Shown here piece by piece: positions 1,285 to 12,374 of a stretch of 64,000 nucleotides of DNA. The notes under the pieces are model-generated. The model ran no database searches. It had not been told where the DNA came from and saw only the letters and a list, made by a program, of their open reading frames with translations. Position 1 is the first letter of the stretch. Every line of letters starts with the position of its first letter. The position numbers and the translations under genes are program-made. The DNA comes from Kutzneria viridogrisea (GTDB lineage: Bacteria > Actinomycetota > Actinomycetes > Mycobacteriales > Pseudonocardiaceae): the NCBI GenBank assembly GCA_014138725.1, contig JACJID010000004.1:620001-684000 (forward strand). Reading direction: 5' to 3'.

Positions 1285-2352
1285 GTGATCGGCACTCGTG
1301 AGGTGGACGCGCTGGTGGTCGGGGCCGGGCAGGCGGGCCTGTCCACCAGTTACCACCTGCGCAGGCTCGGCGTGCGCCACCTCGTGCTCGACGGCAACGA
1401 CGGTCCCGGCGGGGCGTGGCGGCACAGGTGGCCCTCGCTGCGACTGGGCAAGGTGCACGGCATCCACGACCTGCCGGGACTCGCGCTGGGGCACGCCGAT
1501 GACGACCGGCCCGCCTCGGAGGTCGTGGCCGACTACTTCGCCGCCTACGAGCGGAGGTTCGACCTGCCGGTGCTGCGCCCGGTGCGGGTCCGCGCCGTGC
1601 GCGAAGGCGAGGGCGGCCGCCTGCTGGTGCGGACCGACCACGGGGACTGGGCGGCCCGCGCACTGGTCAACGCCACCGGCACCTGGGACCGGCCGTTCTG
1701 GCCGCGCTACCCGGGCCAGGACACGTTCACCGGGCGCCAGCTGCACACCGCCGACTACCTGGGGCCCGAGGAGTTCGCGGGCAGGCACGTGGTGGTGGTC
1801 GGCGGTGGCGCGTCGGCCGTGCAGCAGCTGGCGGAGATCTCCGAGGTCACCAGCACGACCTGGGTGACGCGCCGGCCGCCGGTGTGGCACGAGCGGTTCG
1901 ACCAGGAGGCGGGTCGTGCCGCCGTGGCACTGGTGGACCAGCGCGTGCGCGCCGGGCTGCCCCCGGCCAGCGTGGTGAGCGTGACCGGGCTGGGCCTGAC
2001 CCCGCAGGTGCTGGCCGCGAGGGAGCGCGGGGTGCTGACCCGGCTGCCCGTCTTCGACCGGATCACCCCGGAGGGCGTCGCCTGGGACGACGGGCGGTTC
2101 GTGCGCGCGGAGGTGATCCTGTGGGCCACCGGCTTCCGCGCGGCCATCGACCACCTCGCCCCGCTGCACCTGCGCGGCCCCGGCGGCGGCATCGTCATGG
2201 ACGGCACGCGGGTGGTGGCCGACGCCCGGCTGCACCTGGTCGGTTACGGCCCGTCAGCGAGCACGATCGGCGCGACGCGGGCCGGCCGGGAAGCGGCGCG
2301 CGCGATTGCGGCCCTTCTTCGGGACGAATCGGGTATACGAACGCCCGCATAA
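1285..2352 (+). CDS. Flavin-containing monooxygenase / NAD(P)-binding oxidoreductase
   Basis: A single-chain flavoprotein of 355 residues. An FAD-binding GAGQAG motif (residues 13-18) follows the first beta strand, and a second dinucleotide-binding GGGASA motif (173-178) is expected to bind NAD(P)H. The closing ATG motif (WATGF, near residue 285) is typical of this family. Homologues hydroxylate small molecules or oxidise N or S atoms; the substrate cannot be read from sequence. The GTG start has only a weak ACGGG upstream; an internal GTG seven codons in (VDALVVGAG) is possible. It is the first gene of the accessory block inserted after hisE and could act on a product of the lux-like genes (inference). 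Confidence 0.8.
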
Positions 2353-2602
2353 CGATCCGCACGAGGGGCGAAGATTCCGGGATTTGTGCCCGGATACAAC
2401 TGGTCACGGGTGATCCCGCTCTCGCTCGAACGCCATTTTCGCAGCTCAGCGGGGTCATGAACCAAACGGAGCAGTTGCCATCGCGGGGTAGCGTCAACGC
2501 AGCGTGCCACTCTGCCAGGCCGCACTGGGAATTCTTCTCACCAACTGAGTCAGCCGGGGTTGCTTTGTGCCCTCGGCCGGTTTTGCGCGCCTAGGAGGAA
2601 GA

Positions 2603-3733
2603 GTGGACGCGGTTTTCCGCCGTGCCCGGCTCGAGGACATCGACCAGCTGTTGACGCTGTACCGCCACGTCTACGGCAAGGACTACAAGCTGCCACTGGG
2701 CACCGACCCGGTGGTGATGGCGGCCGAGATCACCCGCCCGACCACGACCTGGCTGGTGGCGGAGCAGCCGGGCAGCGGCCGGATCGTCGCCTCGATCATG
2801 GCCACGGTGGAGCCCGCCGACCGGCTGGGCAAGCTGCAGGGCCTGGTGGTGCACCGGGACTGCCGGGGCACCGGCATCGCGCACGAGGCGGTCCGCCAGC
2901 TCAGTGAGACCCTGCTCAGCGAGCAGCGGCACCAGGTGGACTCGGTGTACGCCACCGCGCGCACCACGGCCACCGCCCCGCAGCGGATCTGCCTGCGCAA
3001 CGGCTTCCGGCCACTGGGCATGCTGCCGAACCTGCGCAAGGCGGCCCGTCAGGAGACGATGGTGCTGCTGGCCAAGCACCGCGAGGGGGTGCTGGAGCGG
3101 CGGCACCCCGTGCCCCGCATCCCCGCCGCGCTGGCCAACCTGGTCAGTGCGCTGGACGGCCCGGACCGCCTGCCCGAACTGGTCGACGCCGTGCCCGCCC
3201 CGGCGCCGGGCCGTTCGGTGCCCGCCGAACTGGTCGACGCCCCGCAGTTCGTGCTGCGGCGGTTCCGCGAGGTGGTCACCGACCCGACGCGGCGGTTCTA
3301 CCCGTTCCACTCCCCCAACGTGCTGGTGGCCGCCGAGGACGGGTCCTACGAGCTGTACGCGCACCTGAGCCGCTGCGACGGCTACTGCACGCTGATCGGG
3401 GCCGCGCCCAGCGCGCTGGCGCTGGCCGACCACCTGGAGAGCCTGATCGAGCAGTTGGCCGGGCTCGGCGCGGGCTACGTGGAGACCCTGCTGCCGCTGG
3501 ACTGCCTTGAGGAGCTGAACCTGTTGCTGGCGCACGGGTTCCTGCCCGCGGCGGCCTATCCGGCGATGCGCCGTGACGGGGAGGGCTTCCGCGACTACGT
3601 GGTGATGGCCAGGACCATGCAGCCGCTGGACTTCCGCGGCCTGGCCATCGACGAGACGTTCCGGCCGTTCACCGAGCAGTACGTGGACCTGTGGAAGCGG
3701 CGGTACCTGGACACGGGGGCGGTGTACCGGTGA
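2603..3733 (+). CDS. GNAT-family acyltransferase, first gene of the lux-like operon
   Basis: The N-terminal 170 residues look like a GCN5-related acyltransferase: a beta-strand/helix pattern with acyl-CoA-binding-loop-like LVVHRDCRGTGIAHEAVRQ and a closing ICLRNGFRPLGM. The remaining 200 residues are less clear and include another GNAT-like segment (GAGYVETLLPLD ... LLAHGFLPAAAYP). So it may be a tandem GNAT protein of 376 residues. GTG at 2603 is chosen because AGGAGG lies four bases upstream; a GTG at 2567 lacks one. The stop overlaps the LuxE-like start as GTGA, so the two are probably translated together. It may supply or capture the acyl group handled by the next two enzymes, as LuxD does in luminescence operons (inference). 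Confidence 0.8.
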   Translation: MDAVFRRARLEDIDQLLTLYRHVYGKDYKLPLGTDPVVMAAEITRPTTTWLVAEQPGSGRIVASIMATVEPADRLGKLQGLVVHRDCRGTGIAHEAVRQLSETLLSEQRHQVDSVYATARTTATAPQRICLRNGFRPLGMLPNLRKAARQETMVLLAKHREGVLERRHPVPRIPAALANLVSALDGPDRLPELVDAVPAPAPGRSVPAELVDAPQFVLRRFREVVTDPTRRFYPFHSPNVLVAAEDGSYELYAHLSRCDGYCTLIGAAPSALALADHLESLIEQLAGLGAGYVETLLPLDCLEELNLLLAHGFLPAAAYPAMRRDGEGFRDYVVMARTMQPLDFRGLAIDETFRPFTEQYVDLWKRRYLDTGAVYR

Positions 3734-4881
3734 GCCGCTACCTCGACCCGGTGAGCGTGCCGGATCCTGTTGCGCTGTCCCAGGTCCAGGCATTGCTGGA
3801 CGTGCCCGACCCGTACTGGTGGGGCGCCGGGGCCGATGAGCTGTTCCTGGCGGCCATGGCCCAGTCCAACGCCTGGCACGCACAGCGCTCGGAGTTCTTC
3901 GGCTCGCTGTGGCGGGCCAGCGGGGAACCGACCGAGTTGGCCGCTTTCCCTTACGTGCACGCCAACTTCTTCAAGCAGCACGAGGTCACCTCGCTGCCCG
4001 CCGAGCAGATCGCGCTGCACGTGACCTCCTCCGGCACGACCGGTCAGAAGTCGCAGATGTTCTTCGACGACTGGACCCTGCGCAGCGGTCAGCGCATGGT
4101 CGCCAGGACCTTCGACCACCACGGCTGGCTGGGTTCCGCGGAGCCGGTGAACTACCTGCTCTACAGCTACCAGCCGCGTCCCGGGCTGAACCTGGGCACC
4201 TCCTTCACCGACGACTACCTGTGCGACTTCGCCCCGGTGCGCTCGGTGGAGTACGGGCTGCCCAACACCGGTTCCGGGCACGAGTTCGACGTGTTCGGCT
4301 GCGTGCGCGCGCTGCTGCGCTTCGCCGAGGAGGGCGCCCCGGTGCGGATCTTCGGCTTCCCCGCGTTCCTGTCGTTCACCCTGGACCGGATGCGGGCGCT
4401 GGGCCTGCCCCCGGTGCGGCTGCACCCCGATTCGCTGGTGGTCTTCGGCGGCGGCTGGAAGGGCAACGCGGACAAGCAGGTGGCCAAGTCCGAGCTGTAC
4501 CGGCGGATCCACGAGCAGCTGGGCATCCCCGACGCGCGCATCCGGGACGGGTTCGGCGCGGTGGAGCACGCCGTGCTGTACCTGGAGTGCGAGCGGCACA
4601 ACCTGCACGTGCCCACCTGGGCCCGGGTGCTGATCCGCTCGGTGCGCGACCTGGAGCCGGTGCCGATGGGCGAACCCGGCTTCCTGCAACTGGTCTCGCC
4701 CTACATCACCTCGGTGCCCGCGCAGAGCGTGCTCATGGGCGACCTCGCCTCCCTGCACTCCCCGCAGGAGTGCGGCTGCGGGCTGCCCACCCCGTGGTTC
4801 ACCGTGCACGGCAGGGCCGGGGTCAGCCGCAACCGCAGTTGCGCCGTGGCCGCGGCCGAACTCCTCAAGGGACGGTCATGA
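3730..4881 (+). CDS. LuxE-like acyl-protein synthetase (adenylate-forming)
   Basis: This 383-residue protein resembles LuxE, the synthetase subunit of the bacterial luciferase fatty-acid reductase, which adenylates a fatty acid and passes it through its own cysteine to LuxC. Visible support: the ATP-binding loop SSGTTG at residues 100-105, the family-like stretch FGGGWKGNADKQ, and a C-terminal GRAGVSRNRSCAVAAAELL with Cys371. That position matches the acylated cysteine near the LuxE C-terminus (Cys364 in Vibrio LuxE). It overlaps the GNAT gene by GTGA and the LuxC-like gene by ATGA. No luxA or luxB is present, so luminescence is not implied; an aldehyde or thioester intermediate for another product is more likely. 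Confidence 0.88.
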   Translation: MSRYLDPVSVPDPVALSQVQALLDVPDPYWWGAGADELFLAAMAQSNAWHAQRSEFFGSLWRASGEPTELAAFPYVHANFFKQHEVTSLPAEQIALHVTSSGTTGQKSQMFFDDWTLRSGQRMVARTFDHHGWLGSAEPVNYLLYSYQPRPGLNLGTSFTDDYLCDFAPVRSVEYGLPNTGSGHEFDVFGCVRALLRFAEEGAPVRIFGFPAFLSFTLDRMRALGLPPVRLHPDSLVVFGGGWKGNADKQVAKSELYRRIHEQLGIPDARIRDGFGAVEHAVLYLECERHNLHVPTWARVLIRSVRDLEPVPMGEPGFLQLVSPYITSVPAQSVLMGDLASLHSPQECGCGLPTPWFTVHGRAGVSRNRSCAVAAAELLKGRS

Positions 4882-7379
4882 CCGAGTCGCAGCAGCACTT
4901 CTGGCAGGGCGAGTGGATCGACGACGCCGAGGCCGACCGCAGGCTGGACCGGCTCGACGAGCTCGTGCAGCCCGCGCTGGCCCAGCGGCTGAGCCCGCTG
5001 GTGGTGGTCTCCGCCTGCGCGCTGCTCGCCGAGCTGCTGTCCGATGTGGACAGCCCGGCACGCGGTGAGCTGGCGGCACGGCTGCGTCGCACCGGCGTGT
5101 CCGAGGCCGAGGTGGAGCGCACCTTCGCCGACCTGGTTGAGGCCATGGGCCGGGAGTCCTTGGAGCGCAAGCTCACCCGCGAGCTGGGTGGGACCGATCC
5201 CGGCCGCCTGGCCAGGGCCGACTTCCGCGCCGAGGTCTTCGAGGCCTGGGTCCCGGTGGGCGTACTGGCGCACGTGGCCCCGGGCAACGCCCCAGCGGCC
5301 GGGGCGATGAGCGTGGTGGAGGGCCTGCTCGCGGGCAACGTCAACGTGGTCAAGACCAGTGGTGAGGACCCGCTGTTCACCCACCACCTGCTGGCGGCCC
5401 TCGCCGACCAGGACCCGACCGGGCGCATCGCGCGGCGGCTGGTGGTGCTGCGCTTCTCCTCGGCGCGGACCGACTGGCTGGCGCGGATGTGCGCGCCCGC
5501 CGACGCGGTGGCGGCCTGGGGCGGTGAGGAGGCGCTGGCCGGTGTCGCCGAGCACGTGCGGCCCGGCTGCCGGCTCGTGGACTGGGGGCCGAAACTGTCG
5601 TTCGCCTACCTGACGGCCGACAGCTGGAGCCAGGACGAGCAGCTGCGGGGTGTGGCCGAGGACATCTGCCGCCTGGACCAGCAGGCCTGCTCCAGTCCGC
5701 AGGTGATCTACCTGGACACCGAGTCCCCGGAGGACCTGTTCGCGTTCAGCGAGCGGTTCGCCCGCGTGCTGGCGGCCACCGTCGTAGAGCCCGGCGAGCC
5801 GGGTGCCGCGGAGCGGGCGGAGATCACCAGCACCGTCCTGCTCGCCCGGCTGGAGGAGCACCTGGGGCTGACCCGGGTGCATGCCGCGCCGGACGGCAGC
5901 TGGCACGTGCTGGCCGACACCAGGCCCGCGCTGCGCGCCTCACCGCTGTACCGGACCGTGTGGGTCAAGCCCTTGCCCCGCAAGGACATCGTCCGCGTGC
6001 TGCGACCGATGCGCCGCTACCTCCAGACAGTCGGCATCGGGGCGAGCCGCCCGGACCTCGCCGAGCTGACCCGCGCCGTGCTCACCGCGGGGGCCCAGCG
6101 CGTCACCGCGCTCGGCGGCATGCTGGGCAGCTACGACGGTGAGCCGCACGACGGCGTGTACGCCCTACAGCGCTACAGCCGCCGCGTGGACGTGCAACTG
6201 GACGAGCGGTTCGCCGAGGACGCGAGCCTGGACGACCTGCTGGCCGCCGAGCAGTTGCCCGCGCCGCGCGTGCCGATCACGCCGAAGGACCGGTTCGAGC
6301 AGCTGCAACGGGGTTCGGACCGCGCCGAGGTGTTCTTCCGCAGCGGGGGCAGTTCCGGTGCGCCCAAACTCTCGGCGTTCAGCTGGGACGACTACCGCGA
6401 GCACATGCGCTTCGGCGCGGAGGGCCTGCTGGCGGCCGGGTTGCGGCCCGGTGCGGACCGCACGATGAACCTGTTCTTCGGCGGGCAGCTCTACGGCGGG
6501 TTCACCAGCTTCTTCTCGGTGTTGGAGACGATGGGCGCGGTGCAGCTGCCGATGGCCGCGCACGAGGACCACGCCGCCGTCGCCAAGTCCATTGTGGACA
6601 ATCGAGTGAACACCCTGCTGGGTATGCCGAACTACCTGCTGCGCGTGTTCGCGGAAGGCGCCGAGCCGCTGCGCGCTTACCGGGGCGTGCGCAAGGTCTT
6701 CTTCGGCGGGGAGCAGATGCCCCGGCGGCAGCGGGACTGGCTGCGCGAGGAGTTCGGGGTCGAGGTGATCCGCTCGGCGGCCTACGGCAGCGCCGACGCC
6801 GGGCCGCTGGGCTACCAGTGCCCGCACTGCCCGGAGCGGGTGCACCACCTGTTCACCGGCATCCAGACGCTGGAGATCCTCGACGTGGCCGAGGACCGAC
6901 CGGTGGCGGTGGGCCAGACGGGGCGGCTGGTGTTCACCGCGCACACCCGGCGCGGGCAGCGGCTGGACCGCTACGAGATCGGCGACCTGGGCCGCTGGGT
7001 GGACGGCGCCTGCGGCTGCGGGCGGCGCAGCCCCCGGTTCGAGCTGCTGGGCCGGTTCGGCGACGTGTTCCGCAGCGGCACGTACTTCCTCAACTACCGC
7101 CGGTTCACGAGCATCGCCGAGGACGCGCTGGACTACAGCGGGGCGGTGCAGGTCGTGCTGGAGGGCTCGCACGACGGGGAGACGCTGCGGGTGCGGCTGG
7201 AACGCGGCAAGGTCGACCCGGGCGCCGCGACCGAGGCCCTGCTGGCGGGCTACCCCGACCTGAACGCGGCGGTGACCCAGGACCGCACGCTGGCGCTGCG
7301 CGTGGAGCCGACCGAGCCGGAGGCGTTCGACCGGACCCCGGGCAGCGGCAAGCTGCTCGCCGTGATCGACAACCGCTGA
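4878..7379 (+). CDS. LuxC-like acyl-CoA reductase fused to PaaK-like adenylation domain
   Basis: An 833-residue two-domain enzyme. Residues 1 to about 440 form a LuxC domain, the NADPH-dependent reductase turning an acyl thioester into an aldehyde. The catalytic cysteine motif DQQACSSPQ places Cys271, close to the LuxC cysteine. Residues about 460-833 form a phenylacetate-CoA-ligase/CoF-synthetase-like adenylation domain, with RSGGSSGAPK at 488-497, FFGGEQMPRRQR, the AYGSADAGPLGYQCPHC region and the ending TPGSGKLLAVID. LuxC proteins are normally about 480 residues without this extension. The ATG overlaps the luxE-like stop (ATGA). One reading is a self-loading reductase that activates an acid and reduces it; another is that the second domain modifies the aldehyde's partner. 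Confidence 0.88.
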   Translation: MTESQQHFWQGEWIDDAEADRRLDRLDELVQPALAQRLSPLVVVSACALLAELLSDVDSPARGELAARLRRTGVSEAEVERTFADLVEAMGRESLERKLTRELGGTDPGRLARADFRAEVFEAWVPVGVLAHVAPGNAPAAGAMSVVEGLLAGNVNVVKTSGEDPLFTHHLLAALADQDPTGRIARRLVVLRFSSARTDWLARMCAPADAVAAWGGEEALAGVAEHVRPGCRLVDWGPKLSFAYLTADSWSQDEQLRGVAEDICRLDQQACSSPQVIYLDTESPEDLFAFSERFARVLAATVVEPGEPGAAERAEITSTVLLARLEEHLGLTRVHAAPDGSWHVLADTRPALRASPLYRTVWVKPLPRKDIVRVLRPMRRYLQTVGIGASRPDLAELTRAVLTAGAQRVTALGGMLGSYDGEPHDGVYALQRYSRRVDVQLDERFAEDASLDDLLAAEQLPAPRVPITPKDRFEQLQRGSDRAEVFFRSGGSSGAPKLSAFSWDDYREHMRFGAEGLLAAGLRPGADRTMNLFFGGQLYGGFTSFFSVLETMGAVQLPMAAHEDHAAVAKSIVDNRVNTLLGMPNYLLRVFAEGAEPLRAYRGVRKVFFGGEQMPRRQRDWLREEFGVEVIRSAAYGSADAGPLGYQCPHCPERVHHLFTGIQTLEILDVAEDRPVAVGQTGRLVFTAHTRRGQRLDRYEIGDLGRWVDGACGCGRRSPRFELLGRFGDVFRSGTYFLNYRRFTSIAEDALDYSGAVQVVLEGSHDGETLRVRLERGKVDPGAATEALLAGYPDLNAAVTQDRTLALRVEPTEPEAFDRTPGSGKLLAVIDNR

Positions 7380-7477
7380 ACGGGACTCACACGCCCGTGA
7401 GCGGGACACGCCGAGAACCCGGCGTGTCCCGCTCTGAGGAGCGCGAGTCCCGCCCACACGAGCGCGAGTCCCGCTCA
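7378..7477. repeat. 21-bp repeat array, two reverse and two forward units
   Basis: Units with core CGGGACTC (reverse) run from the LuxC stop codon; units with core GCGAGTCCCGC (forward) run up to the facing permease stop at 7475-7477. A perfect palindrome lies in the middle. The array fills the whole gap between two convergent genes. Confidence 0.75.
7399..7434. terminator. Bidirectional hairpin between convergent genes
   Basis: Perfect 15-base arms, GAGCGGGACACGCCG at 7399-7413 and its complement at 7420-7434, with a six-base AGAACC loop. It lies 20 bases after the LuxC-like stop and about 40 bases before the convergent permease stop. There is no U-tract, as usual in high-GC actinobacteria. 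Confidence 0.75.
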
Positions 7478-8112
7478 GCCGATGGCCCAGCCGGGTTGGT
7501 TGGCGGCGGGATTGGCCGTGCGGATCACGGTGCGGCGCAACACCGGCACGGTGGCCGCGAACCCGGCGGCGGCCAGCAGCACCGAGACCAGTGCCGCGAC
7601 GGGCAGCGGCACGGTGAGCAGGCGCACGGCCCCGAGCCAGCCCGCCGACAGGAGCAGTTCCGTGCCCGCGGCGGGGATCAGCGCGGGCAGCAGCAGGTAC
7701 AGGCCGCGCACCCCGTAGCGGTAGAAGCAGGCGCCGATCAGCATGCCGCTGCTGACGTGTCCCAGCAGCAGCACCGCGGTTTCCAGCAACACCAACGGGA
7801 TCTGCCCGGTGGAGCGGTCAGCACCAGGCCGCCGATGGCCCCGAGCGTGAAGGCCCGCCGGGTGCTGTCGTTGGCCACGTACACGCGCAGTTGCACCGGC
7901 ACGGTCATGATCGCCAGGGCGAGCGGGAAGTACAGCGCCGCACCGACGGCGATCTTCTCCCAGATGCTGTGGTTGAGCGCCGCGGAAACGGTCGCGAGCA
8001 CACCAACCAGTACCGCCACGGCCGCGGCCAGCGCCAGGAACCAGAACAGGAACCGTTGGCAGGAAAGGTAGACCAGCTTCGCGATGAGGCGGGCCTGTGC
8101 GTTCTGGGTCAT
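7475..8112 (-). pseudogene. ABC transporter permease, frameshifted
   Basis: Two overlapping reading frames encode one membrane protein of about 212 residues. The first frame starts at ATG 8112 (MTQNAQARLIAK) and contains three hydrophobic helices. It then runs off into a Cys/Trp-rich nonsense tail. The second frame resumes with IPLVLLETAVLLLGHVSSG and holds three more helices, ending PGWAIG. The switch lies near 7800-7820, just after the GLVLT codons. The start overlaps the ATPase stop (ATGA), so it was built as that ATPase's membrane partner in a YtrA-type antibiotic or peptide exporter (inference). It is either a real loss-of-function mutation or a sequencing error; the adjacent ATPase is also shifted. 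Confidence 0.72.
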
Positions 8113-8988
8113 CGCGGGCTCCCCTGCTCGCGGGTGAGGTGCACGAAGAGGTCCTGCACGGAGATCGGCCCCAGGTCCAGCCCCTCGGCGCGGGCCTGCC
8201 TGCGCCTGTCCTCGGCCAACTCGCCGTAGACGGTGACCGCCTTCGTACCGCCCAACCGCTTCTCCCCCACCACGGTCAGGCTCGCGACGAACCGGTCCAC
8301 CGCCTCGGCCGGCCCGGTGACGGTCTGCCCGCGTGCGCGCAGCACGTCGGTGTCCTCGTGCAGCAGCAGCCGTCCCCCGTCGAGGATCAGCACCTGCTCG
8401 AACAGGGCGTCGACCTCCTCGATCAGGTGCGAGGAGAGCAGGACCGTGCGCGGGTGGCGGCCGTAGTCGGCGATCAGCTCCTCGTAGAAGGTGTACCGGG
8501 CGGGCGCGTCCATACCGAGGTAGGACTCGTCGAAGATGGTCAGCGGCGCACGCGAGGCCGGGCCGATGGTCACGCCCAGCGCGGACTTCATGCCCCGCGA
8601 CAGGGCGCCGACCCGCTTGTCCGGCGACAGACCGAAGCGAGCGGCCAGGGCTTGGGCGTAGGTGTGGTCCCAGGTGGGGCGAAACCGCCCCGCGAAGCGC
8701 AGGACCCGGTCCACTGTGGACGGAACCAGGTCGGGCTCGTCGCGGATGAAGCAGGTGCCCGCCGCGGTCCTCGGGTTCTCGAACGGGTCCTCGCCGTCCA
8801 CGAGCACCGTGCCCGCCGAGGCCGGGCGGTAGGCCGCCAGAGTGGACAGCAGGCTCGTCTTACCCGAGCCGTTGCGGCCGATCAGCCCGTGGATCCTTCC
8901 CCCGGCCAGGGTGCAGGACAGGCCGTCCCACGGCGGTGGTGCCGCCGTGGCGCACCGTCAGCCCGGACAGCGTGATCTCGTAGGTCAT
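8109..8988 (-). pseudogene. ABC transporter ATP-binding protein, frameshifted near 8927
   Basis: The start at ATG 8988 gives MTYEITLSGLTVRHGGTTAV, a normal ABC N-terminus. The frame is lost at a GGG run (8927-8929) and resumes as DGLSCTLAGGRIHGLIGR with Walker A GRNGSGKTS. Removing one G would restore a continuous protein of about 292 residues. Downstream are a degenerate signature (LSRGMKS), Walker B with TIFDES, and H-loop SSHLIEEVD. The short active-site pattern is typical of YtrB-like ATPases controlled by GntR/YtrA repressors. The start overlaps the GntR stop and the stop overlaps the permease start (both ATGA). An internal GTG at 8807 would give only a Walker-A-less fragment. Confidence 0.75.
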
Positions 8989-9368
8989 CGCGGCTGCTCC
9001 CCCTCGGCGCGCCGCAGCCGATCGATGATCTCGCCGAGCGGGATGCCGATCATCCGCGCCTCGGCCACCATCGCGTCGACCACCTCGACGTAGAACAGTT
9101 CCTGGCGGCGCTCCCGCAGCCGCTGCCTCGCGTCCTGGCTGACGAACATGCCAATCCCCCGCTTCTTGTACAGCACACCTTCCTCGATCAACAGCGCGAA
9201 ACCCTTGGCAGCCGTGGCCGGGTTGATCCGGTAGAAGGCCGCGTACTGGTTGGTGGACATGACCTGCTCGTCCGCGTGCAGCGTGCCGCGCAGGATGTCG
9301 GCTTTGATCTGGTCGGCGATCTGTTGGTAGATCGGGCTCCGGTCGTCGAACACGAAGAGCCCCCTCAC
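8985..9368 (-). CDS. GntR/YtrA-family transcriptional repressor
   Basis: A 127-residue regulator with the N-terminal winged helix PIYQQIADQIKADILRGTL, helix-turn-helix STNQYAAFYRINPATAAKGFALLIEEGV and wing RGIGMFV. The short C-terminal helical tail (about 45 residues) is the YtrA subfamily form, which represses adjacent ABC exporter genes and is released by cell-envelope-active compounds in known members. The GTG start at 9368 directly follows a promoter-like region carrying an inverted repeat. It is the first gene of a three-gene coupled operon with the ATPase and permease. Confidence 0.88.
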   Translation of the reverse strand: MRGLFVFDDRSPIYQQIADQIKADILRGTLHADEQVMSTNQYAAFYRINPATAAKGFALLIEEGVLYKKRGIGMFVSQDARQRLRERRQELFYVEVVDAMVAEARMIGIPLGEIIDRLRRAEGEQPR

Positions 9369-9374
9369 TTCGTT

Positions 9375-9398
9375 GGTTCGTTACTTGACTAGTGAACC
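9375..9398. promoter_or_regulatory. Candidate GntR/YtrA operator
   Basis: An inverted repeat GGTTC-14-GAACC with inner matching TA/TA pairs lies seven bases upstream of the GntR gene start. The position suits autorepression. No binding site consensus is known for this protein, so the assignment is inference. Confidence 0.4.
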
Positions 9399-9427
9399 GC
9401 AGAGGGCATGGGGTGTCCACAAACAGG

Positions 9428-9486
9428 TGAGCGGGAGTCGCGCGCGCCAGAGCGGGACTGGCGCGCGCCAGGACGGGACTCGCGGG
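9428..9486. repeat. 21-bp repeat array, three units
   Basis: Three units of exactly 21 bases with core GCGGGA(C/G)T. The last unit runs into the ketoacyl synthase stop codon (GGGTCAG). It lies between the 3' end of that gene and the promoter of the GntR operon, which is read on the same strand. Confidence 0.7.
9440..9468 (-). terminator. Hairpin downstream of ketoacyl synthase III
   Basis: Perfect 11-base arms GCGCGCGCCAG and CTGGCGCGCGC with a seven-base loop. The hairpin forms from two neighbouring 21-bp units. It starts about 18 bases beyond the stop codon of the gene read toward it. Confidence 0.65.
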
Positions 9487-10503
9487 TCAGGGCAGGGTGA
9501 CGACCTGGCCCGCGAAGCTCAGGCCGGCACCGAAGCCGAGCAGCAGGGCCAGGTCCCCGGACTTGGCACGGCCCGAGTCGAGCAGGCTGTCCATGGCCAG
9601 CGGGATCGAGGCCGCCGAGGTGTTGCCCTGCTCCACGATGTCGCGGGCGACCACCACCGAGTCGGGCAGCCTGAGTGAGCGCACCAGCGCGTCGGTGATC
9701 CGGTCGTTGGCCTGGTGCGGGATGAACACGTCCAGGTCCTCGGGCGAGAGCCCGCTGGTCCGCAGGGTCCGCCTGGCCACCGCGCCCATGCTGACCGAGG
9801 CCCAGCGGAACACCGCCTGCCCCTTCATGCTCAGCACCGGGAACGGCGCGTCGGGGTCCTTGTCCAGCTCGTCGCGCCACTCCAGCCAGCTGCGGTCCTG
9901 GGTGATCGTGTCGGCCTGCTCCCCGTCGCTGCCCCACACCACCGGACCGATGCCGGGCTCCGCCGAGGCGCCGACCACGGCGGCCCCCGCCCCGTCGGCG
10001 AACAGGAACGCGGTGCCTCGGTCCCTGGGGTCGATCATGTCGGTCATCCGCTCCACGCCGACGACCAGCACGGTGGAGGCGCTGCCGCCGCGCACGAAGT
10101 CCTTGGCCACGGCCAGCCCGTAGCAGAAGCCCGCGCAGGCGGCGGACACGTCGAAGGAGCCCGCGTTCACCGCGCCGATCCGGTGCGCGAGCACGCTGGC
10201 CGCGGCCGGGGTCTGCCGGAAGTGCGAGATGGTCGCCAGCACCACGCAGCCGATCTGCTCGGCGGGCACCCCACTGCGCTCCAGCGCCTGGCGGGCGGCG
10301 GCCTCGGCCATCTCCAGCACGCCCTCGTCAGCGCTGGCCCAGCGCCGGGACCGGATGCCCGAGCGGGTGCGGATCCACTCGTCGGTGGAGTCGATCAGCC
10401 CGGCGATCTCCTCGTTGCCCACGCCCATCCGGGGCCGGTAGGCGCCGATGCCGAGAATGCGAGCGTGGCGGGGCTCCGAACCCTGCTGGATGGACGCCCT
10501 CAC
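9487..10503 (-). CDS. 3-oxoacyl-[acyl-carrier-protein] synthase III (KAS III)
   Basis: A thiolase-fold condensing enzyme of 338 residues joining an acyl-CoA starter to malonyl-ACP. The full catalytic triad is visible: Cys123 in SAACAGFCYG, His in FIPHQAN near residue 257, and Asn in GNTSAASIP near residue 288. The ending GFGAGLSFAGQVV is the usual KAS III C-terminus. It could be the housekeeping FabH, but it has no fabD-acpP-fabF neighbours. It lies among acyl-activating genes, so a dedicated role making the acyl chain for the LuxC/LuxE-like enzymes is plausible (inference). GTG at 10503 is the only good start in frame; no strong Shine-Dalgarno was seen. Confidence 0.9.
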   Translation of the reverse strand: MRASIQQGSEPRHARILGIGAYRPRMGVGNEEIAGLIDSTDEWIRTRSGIRSRRWASADEGVLEMAEAAARQALERSGVPAEQIGCVVLATISHFRQTPAAASVLAHRIGAVNAGSFDVSAACAGFCYGLAVAKDFVRGGSASTVLVVGVERMTDMIDPRDRGTAFLFADGAGAAVVGASAEPGIGPVVWGSDGEQADTITQDRSWLEWRDELDKDPDAPFPVLSMKGQAVFRWASVSMGAVARRTLRTSGLSPEDLDVFIPHQANDRITDALVRSLRLPDSVVVARDIVEQGNTSAASIPLAMDSLLDSGRAKSGDLALLLGFGAGLSFAGQVVTLP

Positions 10504-10911
10504 CAGGTAACTCCCGAAAGACGTGAATTCCGGTCACGTCGCCGCCGGCGTCCCGCACCGCGGAACGAACACCATCACACTGCTTACCGGCGGGTAAATC
10601 AAACAGCGGCCCGCCGATAAACTACCCACGACCGTTCCGGAAATACCCAGGTCAGCTCACCGTAAGGTTGTGACCGACCTCACTATCGAAAGATACATCC
10701 CTGCCTCGGAATGTGCACCCACAACCAGAAAAGCGCCAGTTCATTACATGGCGCGACACACGGAACGGCGTGGCGGGCTTGCGATTGACGTCGAAGCGCC
10801 CTACTCCAAAAAGCGGAGGATCAATGCAGGGCATTCGTCGCACCGCATTCCTCGCCGCCCCCCACCGACCACGGCAGCATCGGTACCGGCCTGCCCTGCC
10901 TGTGCACAGCG
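10504..10911. other. Non-coding gap with AT-richer promoter region
   Basis: No convincing gene. The stretch 10560-10760 is markedly richer in A and T than its surroundings and probably holds the promoter of the ketoacyl synthase gene. A strong GGAGGATCA precedes an ATG at 10824 on the plus strand (MQGIRRTAFLAA, like a signal-peptide start). That frame then runs antisense through the next gene, so it is more likely a decayed gene start than a real CDS. Confidence 0.4.
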
Positions 10912-10939
10912 GCGGGGGCGCCACGCCCGGCGCCCCCGC
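10912..10939 (-). terminator. Hairpin downstream of PaaK-like ligase
   Basis: Perfect arms GCGGGGGCGCC and GGCGCCCCCGC with loop ACGCCC. It begins seven bases past the stop codon of the ligase gene read toward it. Confidence 0.75.
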
Positions 10940-10945
10940 TCGCGT

Positions 10946-12187
10946 TCAGCGCTGGTCGACCAACCGCACCAGCTTGCCGGTGCGGGGGTTGACCTCCAGC
11001 TCACCGGTGGCCACCCGCTCCACCGCCAACGGGTGGATCAGCCCGGCGGCCACGTGCTCGGCGAACATCGGCCGCGTGTCGTCCAACCGGGCGGCCAGCG
11101 CCTCCCGGTCCACCGGGTCACCGGCCAGCCGCAGCACCAGCTCGTCCTTGGCCTGCCTACGCCGCAGCACCACCTGCATACCGGTGACGCGCAGCCCCTC
11201 CGTGGCCGATTCCACGATCGTGCGCAGGTCCTCCAGGTACAGCGTGACCGGGCCGACCCTGGCGCCCTCCTCGGCGCGGCCCAGCAGCCGGAACGTGCGC
11301 TGCCGCACGTCCACCCACTCGGCCATGTCGCCCACCGGGTAGCGCAGCACCGGCATCAGCCGCCGGGTCAGGTCGGTGGCCACCACCCGGCCCGCCCGCC
11401 CCGGCACCTCGATCGGCTGGCCGGTCTCCTGGTCGAGGAGCTCCACCACCTTGTCCTCGGTGAACACCCGGTGCACCCGCACGTCGGGCTCACCGGCCAC
11501 CGGGGCGCCCAGGATCCCGGCGTCCACGCTGGCGTACCCGATCGAGCGCACCTCGGCGTTGGGGAAGGCCGAGGCCAGCAGGGCGCGCTGGTCGGCGTAG
11601 AACGCCTCGCCGCTGAACAGCACCAGGTGCACGTCCGGCAGCTGCTGGCCGGTGTCGGACAGGTGCACCGCGAGGCGGCACAGCGAGGTCGGCGGCGCGG
11701 TGACCACGGTGGCCGAGAAGTCGCGCAGGGTCAGCGCCACGAAGTCCAGTGGGGCGCTGCCCGCGATCGGCAGCTGCACGTTGGGCACCGGGGTGTCCTG
11801 CAGGGTGTTCAGGGTGAACACGAAGCTGGAGTACAGCTCACCGGCGTAGAACAGGTTGGCGACCCGGTCCCCGGGCAGCAGTCCCGCCGCGGCCAGGCCG
11901 GTGCCGAAGGTGCGGCTCATCCGTGCCCACTCGGGCCGGGTGTAGACCGACACCTTGGGCGCGCTGGTCGTGCCCCCGGTCTTGAACACGATGCCGTCGG
12001 TGTGCGGCCCGGTGAGCACCCGGCTGTCCGGGAAGGAGTTGGCCGCCCAGAACGCGGTGTGCTCGACCAGCGGCAGCTCGGTCAGCGCGAGGGGGCCGTC
12101 GGGCAGACCGGCGTACAGCTCGCGGTAGAACGGCGAGTGCTCACGGGCGTGGGCGACGAGTTCGGCCAGGTCGTGGACCTGCACCAC
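10946..12187 (-). CDS. PaaK/CoF-synthetase-like adenylate-forming ligase
   Basis: A 413-residue adenylating enzyme of the phenylacetate-CoA ligase family, which activates a carboxylic acid with ATP and usually transfers it to CoA or a carrier protein. Motifs: FKTGGTTSAPKVSVYT (ATP loop), VLFSGEAFY, the IGYASVDAGILG region, YPVGDMAEW and the C-terminal NPRTGKLVRL. It resembles the second domain of the LuxC-like fusion at 4878 more than ordinary acyl-CoA ligases do. GTG at 12187 has GGAGG six bases upstream; a second GTG follows at once. The Zn-binding Cys of some PaaK-like proteins is absent. Substrate unknown; likely part of the same acyl pathway (inference). Confidence 0.82.
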   Translation of the reverse strand: MVQVHDLAELVAHAREHSPFYRELYAGLPDGPLALTELPLVEHTAFWAANSFPDSRVLTGPHTDGIVFKTGGTTSAPKVSVYTRPEWARMSRTFGTGLAAAGLLPGDRVANLFYAGELYSSFVFTLNTLQDTPVPNVQLPIAGSAPLDFVALTLRDFSATVVTAPPTSLCRLAVHLSDTGQQLPDVHLVLFSGEAFYADQRALLASAFPNAEVRSIGYASVDAGILGAPVAGEPDVRVHRVFTEDKVVELLDQETGQPIEVPGRAGRVVATDLTRRLMPVLRYPVGDMAEWVDVRQRTFRLLGRAEEGARVGPVTLYLEDLRTIVESATEGLRVTGMQVVLRRRQAKDELVLRLAGDPVDREALAARLDDTRPMFAEHVAAGLIHPLAVERVATGELEVNPRTGKLVRLVDQR

Positions 12188-12374
12188 CGGGTACCTCCAT
12201 CGGTGTCGTGGGCGCAAACCGTCCCACAGTAGCCGCCGAGGGCACCACGACCTGGCGCGAAGGTCCCCGAAACCCCGCCGGCCGTGGTGCCCGTTCCCGT
12301 CCCCGGTAGTACCGGCCAGCCTGGCAGCAGGCGCGGTGTTTTTCCACCCGAACTCTCAGGTGCTGAGCGAACTC

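Follow-up and report, generated by a model that had tools for sequence, protein, structure and literature searches.

Which carboxylic acid is reduced by a LuxE/LuxC-type gene set in an actinobacterium, and which of the neighboring genes take part? This question is raised by a stretch of the Kutzneria viridogrisea genome (10.25 Mb), in which LuxE and LuxC genes lie close to a flavin monooxygenase (FMO), a GNAT acetyltransferase, a ketoacyl synthase III (KAS III), two PaaK-type AMP ligase units, and a GntR-ABC set. The whole stretch analyzed, referred to as the window, comprises 64,000 nucleotides (contig JACJID010000004.1, positions 620,001 to 684,000; G000:C4:620001-684000). An original prediction, made from the sequence alone, had interpreted these genes as one inserted block that builds and reduces an acyl chain and has its own exporter. 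We consider it likely that the block instead contains a leupeptin-type cassette, whose product would be a peptide aldehyde assembled independently of a non-ribosomal peptide synthetase (NRPS); we infer substrates, bond order, product, and export.

A Four-Gene Cassette Shared by Many Actinobacteria

Three of the four genes that we assign to the cassette are encoded on the forward strand and overlap by 4 bases at both junctions, as judged by their coordinates. The first encodes a GNAT protein, probably a tandem and proposed to be an amino-acid (leucine) N-acetyltransferase (2603..3733; Pfam Acetyltransf_1 in its first half). It is followed by a LuxE-type acyl-protein synthetase (3730..4881; PF04443, 3.4e-22; PDB 7xc6_E, 3.3e-25) and by a fusion of a LuxC acyl reductase with a PaaK-type AMP ligase, termed LuxC-PaaK (4878..7379; PF05893, 2.2e-85; PF00501). 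Within the fusion, LuxC covers residues ~51–435 and the ligase ~485–833, and both a profile search and Foldseek match it to 7xc6_A and 4r1l. The fourth gene, located on the reverse strand, encodes a second PaaK-type AMP ligase, PaaK2 (10,946..12,217), which stays below the Pfam threshold (no model at 0.001) and was assigned by an NCBIfam PaaK-like model (2.7e-21) and PDB 2y4o (3.2e-24). All four open reading frames (ORFs) are open, with lengths that resemble those of their relatives. Ten window sequences, representing nine genes with the permease in two pieces and covering ORFs of at least 100 amino acids, were scanned with Pfam; they revealed neither a luciferase or LuxD-type domain nor an NRPS domain. 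The absence of a luciferase had been stated by the original prediction, and its gene list (FMO, GNAT, LuxE, LuxC-PaaK, GntR, ABC, KAS III, and the second PaaK) was reproduced by the Pfam and NCBIfam models.

To define the conserved unit, we scanned named genomes using four aligned LuxC-PaaK proteins and two peptide patterns. The best 80 of 125 relatives, three further loci, and the window form a set of 84 loci, in which partner genes were scored by tblastn. Two of these loci (L034 and L056) are identical, leaving 83 distinct ones, and L057 and the Kutzneria genome G402 are probably one genome. GNAT, LuxE, and LuxC-PaaK were found in all 84 loci and PaaK2 in 79, so that both PaaK-type units occur in 79 of 84. 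Regarding the five loci lacking a PaaK2 match, two begin less than 1 kb upstream of GNAT (L085 and L092) and one just upstream of a gene for a major facilitator superfamily (MFS) protein (L121), which leaves absence undecidable there, and the other two (L100 and L101) have a different predicted ORF at the PaaK2 position beside the MFS gene. PaaK2 of L048 is truncated by the end of the locus, and LuxE of L034/L056 matches in two frames. The features noted in L034 (8255-9405 and 11919-12491) are this LuxE and an ORF that reads as transposase-like and lies between LuxC-PaaK and PaaK2. An MFS exporter match is present in 60 of the 84 loci, the usual order in Streptomyces being PaaK2-MFS-GNAT-LuxE-LuxC/PaaK; the first 24 kb of the window gave no MFS match. 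KAS III, FMO, and the ABC ATPase were matched in none of the 83 other loci, i.e., only in the window, and GntR gave two weak matches near locus edges. Judged by this recurrence, the conserved unit is a four-gene cassette of GNAT, LuxE, LuxC-PaaK, and PaaK2, interleaved with putatively native neighbors. The expectation that partner genes travel with the fusion was thus borne out for GNAT, LuxE, and PaaK2, and not for KAS III.

The full fusion was detected in four of 397 genomes sampled from the order, in two of 396 sampled from the phylum, and in three of seven Kutzneria genomes (the window genome, G397, and G402). One further genome of the order sample (G330) has a truncated LuxC fragment without partner genes, which is probably a remnant (L036:9129-9701). 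Homologues occurring alone, named by the original prediction as a counterargument, therefore exist in the form of this fragment and of a plasmid-borne LuxE/LuxC pair described below; in the 84 loci, the full fusion was always accompanied by GNAT and LuxE. Five other loci of the order (L037–L041) contain a distant LuxC with 29–32% identity, one of them (L040) also with a LuxE match, and probably represent different systems. Clustering of neighboring genes, which undercounts (GNAT in 46 loci versus 84 by tblastn), covered ORFs of at least 120 amino acids, and returned many families of antisense ORFs, gave a terpene-cyclase-like family (by reading) as the commonest real-looking one besides the cassette and MFS genes (10 loci).

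Conserved Residues and Structural Models

Cys371 of LuxE and Cys271 of LuxC align with the respective cysteines of the two chains of 7xc6, which we take to form the acyl relay. Both occur without exception in the sequences compared (85 of 85), which come from the 83 other loci, a single Salmonella record, and the window; the same holds for the ligase lysine Lys825 of LuxC-PaaK. The corresponding Lys415 of PaaK2 is kept in all 79 rows used, with row L119 left out. With regard to homology and residues, the reductase assignment was tested on both 7xc6 chains, which are matched, and on both cysteines, which are kept.

The AF2 model of GNAT has a mean predicted local distance difference test score (pLDDT) of 90.3, and its secondary structure repeats a GNAT-like pattern, by which the protein is probably a tandem (two-domain) GNAT. 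Its top 50 Foldseek matches are mixed and include histidine and phosphinothricin acetyltransferases, a tandem GNAT from clavulanic acid biosynthesis, and many spermidine acetyltransferases; such fold matches to a predicted model are weak evidence on the acetylated substrate. The moderate model of LuxC-PaaK (pLDDT 79, predicted template modelling score 0.67) was used for the fold class only. The PaaK-type units match PaaK ligases, and NatL2, AjiA1, and ClxA, which are natural-product ligases, are among these matches.

A Proposed Leupeptin-Type Route to a Peptide Aldehyde

Leupeptin is Ac-Leu-Leu-argininal, a small peptide with a terminal aldehyde that blocks proteases. Because N-acetylation, two ligations, and reduction of a carboxylate with ATP and NAD(P)H are the activities that leupeptin needs, we favor a leupeptin-type function of the cassette. 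In the proposed route, GNAT would use acetyl-CoA to acetylate leucine, or a residue like it, at its alpha-amine, and PaaK2 and the PaaK domain of LuxC-PaaK would form two amide bonds, yielding a peptide acid such as Ac-Leu-Leu-Arg. LuxE would then adenylate the C-terminal carboxylate, the acyl group would pass via Cys371 to Cys271 of LuxC, and NAD(P)H-dependent reduction of this thioester by LuxC would yield the aldehyde. The product would trap proteases of the serine and cysteine types. Its export may fall to the MFS protein in many actinobacterial cassettes; the window locus has no such protein. Two of the cassette-bearing species, Streptomyces roseus (L112) and S. albireticuli (L122), are classical leupeptin producers.

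PMC11212599 describes a non-NRPS pathway to leupeptin that relies on a reductase together with separate AMP-dependent ligases, and PMC7714073 describes a leupeptin acid reductase that consumes NADH and ATP in converting leupeptin acid to the aldehyde. According to PMC8283571, leupABCD of Klebsiella michiganensis consists of four genes with an adjacent transporter and, from its coordinates, spans 5,831 bp; in strain CAV1374, leupA-D correspond to AB185_06775 to AB185_06790 (CP011636.1, 315,353-321,183). The actinobacterial cassette is probably comparable to leupA-D, a likeness drawn from the families of its genes and the activities described for leupeptin biosynthesis, and it may make leupeptin or a related peptide aldehyde. 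As these papers describe leupeptin biosynthesis with the same kinds of activities, the original prediction that no described pathway has this set is probably wrong. Its notion of a specialised pathway is supported for the recurring acid-to-aldehyde set and finds no support for an acyl chain built by KAS III.

Several points weigh against this assignment. PaaK2 is separated from the other cassette genes by KAS III and the GntR-ABC set, no MFS gene is found near the window cassette, and the ABC set looks broken, by which the cassette may not be working in this organism. Polyamine acetyltransferases are as numerous as amino-acid ones among the fold matches of GNAT. Substrate choice is invisible in the sequence, and the functions are proposed from families. 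Furthermore, copies of the cassette from Klebsiella or Xenorhabdus were not found in the viral contigs, E. coli genomes, and plasmids scanned, and a plasmid search in distant mode returned only two Salmonella records.

The first of these, an IncF conjugative plasmid of Salmonella enterica, contains the same four families within 5,759 bp (L123:7656-13414); the set therefore exists in Gammaproteobacteria. The ORF preceding it reads as MFS-like and has no Pfam match. The second Salmonella IncF plasmid (CP053580; L124:7656-12533) contains LuxE, LuxC-PaaK, and PaaK2, with no GNAT annotated there.

The closest LuxE and LuxC outside the cassette were found side by side on a Streptomyces europaeiscabiei plasmid (NZ_CP109155.1; L170:1-7586; 44% and 48% identical, respectively). 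Their neighbors are annotated as DUF692, MBL fold, and YcaO-like genes and a hypothetical ORF of 51 residues, and no ligase or GNAT is annotated in the 13 kb seen of this locus; the reductase pair is therefore not confined to the cassette. By reading, this is a locus for a ribosomally synthesized and post-translationally modified peptide (RiPP), possibly one in which reduction of the peptide C-terminus yields an aldehyde. If so, this LuxE/LuxC branch may generally reduce peptide C-termini, since its nearest members outside the cassette sit in a RiPP-like locus, and a peptide carboxylate could be its natural substrate.

Alternatively, the set could serve a natural product by reducing some carboxylic acid, for example a small aromatic one, to an aldehyde, as EhpF and EhpG do in griseoluteic acid biosynthesis. 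Many solved PaaK relatives have aryl or small-acid substrates by their titles, and EhpF itself is a weak PDB match (3l2k, 3hgu). However, three adenylating units co-occur with an N-acetyltransferase in the cassette, and no aromatic-precursor gene set was recognised by reading among the 40 commonest neighbor families listed. We regard this explanation as improbable and rejected an EhpF/EhpG-type function.

KAS III and FMO as Probable Native Neighbors of the Cassette

The position of KAS III (9487..10,503, reverse strand) between cassette genes and its fit to FabH models suggest another explanation, in which KAS III builds an acyl chain, LuxE and LuxC reduce it to an aldehyde or a derived lipid, and the ABC transporter exports the product. 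The solved LuxC-LuxE complex 7xc6 is indeed a fatty acid reductase. KAS III is also not the sole FabH of the genome, as another one lies between FabD- and FabF-type genes (names by reading); pure housekeeping by an only FabH, which the original prediction had considered as a refutation, does not apply.

Comparison with the six congeners nevertheless argues against a role of KAS III in the pathway. Four congener stretches have the order PAC2-HAD-KAS III-...-FMO-hisE-hisG (L152, L154, L155, and L156) and a fifth has KAS III-HAD-PAC2 only (L153), and none of these five 20-kb stretches contains cassette genes. The KAS III orthologues of these five congeners are 72–74% identical, with that of L156 (G398) split in two frames (9147-10161); the sixth, G400, has weaker KAS III matches only. 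In L155, genes for a DUF4331 protein and a patatin fill the middle of the site. In both congeners that have a cassette (G397 and G402), it is located away from KAS III. Because the congener sites hold both KAS III and FMO without the cassette, the two genes are most simply regarded as native, and the cassette would have entered around KAS III, leaving KAS III and FMO as bystanders.

An acyl chain made by KAS III is therefore decidedly unlikely as the substrate: KAS III is unmatched in the other cassette loci, no acyl carrier or thioesterase family was found in the ten sequences scanned (ORFs of at least 100 amino acids), and the exporter ORFs look frameshifted. KAS III was rejected as a pathway enzyme, as was FMO (1285..2352, forward strand), which lies beside hisE-hisG in four cassette-free congener loci. 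FMO is of the FAD type and ArsO-like by Pfam and NCBIfam, and its best NCBIfam model, ArsO, reaches 343 bits, below the cut-off of 425. A modification of liposugars or surface glycans is highly improbable and was rejected: LuxE and LuxC genes do occur in flagellin glycosylation islands, but these, as described in PMC4875605 and PMC7874193, hold separate ACP, FabG, and ligase genes, and no glycosyltransferase family was recognised among the 40 commonest neighbor families listed, a clustering of ORFs of at least 120 amino acids that would miss small carrier proteins.

The remaining genes between the cassette parts lie on the reverse strand and form the GntR-ABC set, consisting of an ABC permease (7475..8112), an ABC ATPase (about 8109..8988), and a PmtR-like GntR regulator (8985..9368), the latter two assigned by Pfam and NCBIfam; elsewhere, GntR is not a cassette gene. 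The permease is probably frameshifted near 7840, where the alignment of an L167 relative switches between two frames (joint E-value 2e-27). The ATPase is probably frameshifted near 8920. Its frame has its first start codon at 8807, downstream of the P-loop, and none upstream of it; three relatives align only from their own residues 18–23 on (window ~8930 on), and the first 31 residues of one relative match the other frame weakly (E-value 0.32). Unlike these, the GntR-ABC sets of other genomes (L167 and L168) are single ORFs. Both exporter ORFs look frameshifted, which may reflect a sequencing error or decay. The ATPase gave no match at 1e-30 in any of the six congeners. The set was rejected as a conserved exporter, as its ATPase is unmatched in the other cassette loci, where MFS is usual, and the claim that the pathway has its own exporter was not upheld.

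Of the single inserted block in the original prediction, the four-gene cassette remains, KAS III and FMO appearing native and the ABC ATPase being unmatched in the other loci. Of its conserved flanks (all named by reading), hisE, hisG, HAD, and PAC2 were recovered in the congeners, and mshC had no match in the congener stretches.

In a quick tree, the window fusion groups with Solihabitans (95, Shimodaira–Hasegawa-like approximate likelihood ratio test, SH-aLRT, here and below) and then with Streptantibioticus, Kitasatospora, and Streptacidiphilus (96), and the two other Kutzneria fusions are set apart from it (97). This separate branching suggests that the cassette was acquired separately within the genus.

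Clades and Possible Product Diversity

The cassette tree revealed two large clades of 27 (100) and 52 rows (99) and a third of three rows (100). The two large clades carry different residues at some positions, each more than 90% constant in its own clade, and comparing these revealed no specificity code. Three genomes have two cassettes from different clades (L045 and L094, L044 and L119, L075 and L100); Streptantibioticus ferralitis is an example of a species with two. Tentatively, the clade of the window might make an aldehyde other than leupeptin and L101 and L100 a shorter one, as parts of a family of protease inhibitors that differ in sequence and are made without NRPS, in which LuxE/LuxC also act on ribosomal peptides. 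With no PaaK2 beside the MFS gene, L101 and L100 are candidates for a shorter product.

Relation to Known Systems

Leupeptin has long been used as a protease inhibitor and was first found in actinomycetes. Among the leupeptin matches listed from open-licence literature, titles and abstracts name no actinobacterial leup genes, and the set found described there is gammaproteobacterial. What would be new is thus an actinobacterial member of a known leup-type kind, the pathway type itself being already described. The occurrence of the same set in many actinobacteria makes an actinobacterial leupeptin-type pathway directly testable and marks the neighbors that can be left out.

Compared with known systems, the cassette combines shared families in a different arrangement. 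The peptide aldehydes antipain and MAPI belong to the product class proposed here and are made by NRPS according to PMC11212599, whereas no NRPS domain was found in the scanned window sequences. With PaaK-type AMP ligases (4r1l, 2y4o), both units share the fold and the C-terminal lysine, but they are proposed to form amide bonds to amino acids and not CoA esters. The fatty acid reductase that LuxC and LuxE form in luminous bacteria (7xc6) shares its families and the aligned cysteines; in the window, however, LuxC carries a PaaK ligase in the same chain and is accompanied by GNAT and PaaK2, and no luciferase domain was found. For the S. europaeiscabiei plasmid pair, the closest LuxE/LuxC found outside the cassette, the annotation shows neither a ligase fusion nor PaaK2 or GNAT in the 13 kb seen. 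The leupABCD genes of K. michiganensis, Xenorhabdus, and Photorhabdus, as covered by PMC11212599, PMC8283571, and PMC11480411, comprise four genes in ~5.8 kb with the transporter adjacent. A set of four genes with non-NRPS AMP-dependent ligases and an aldehyde-forming reductase is common to both, whereas the window cassette is actinobacterial, has PaaK2 split off, and has no MFS gene nearby.

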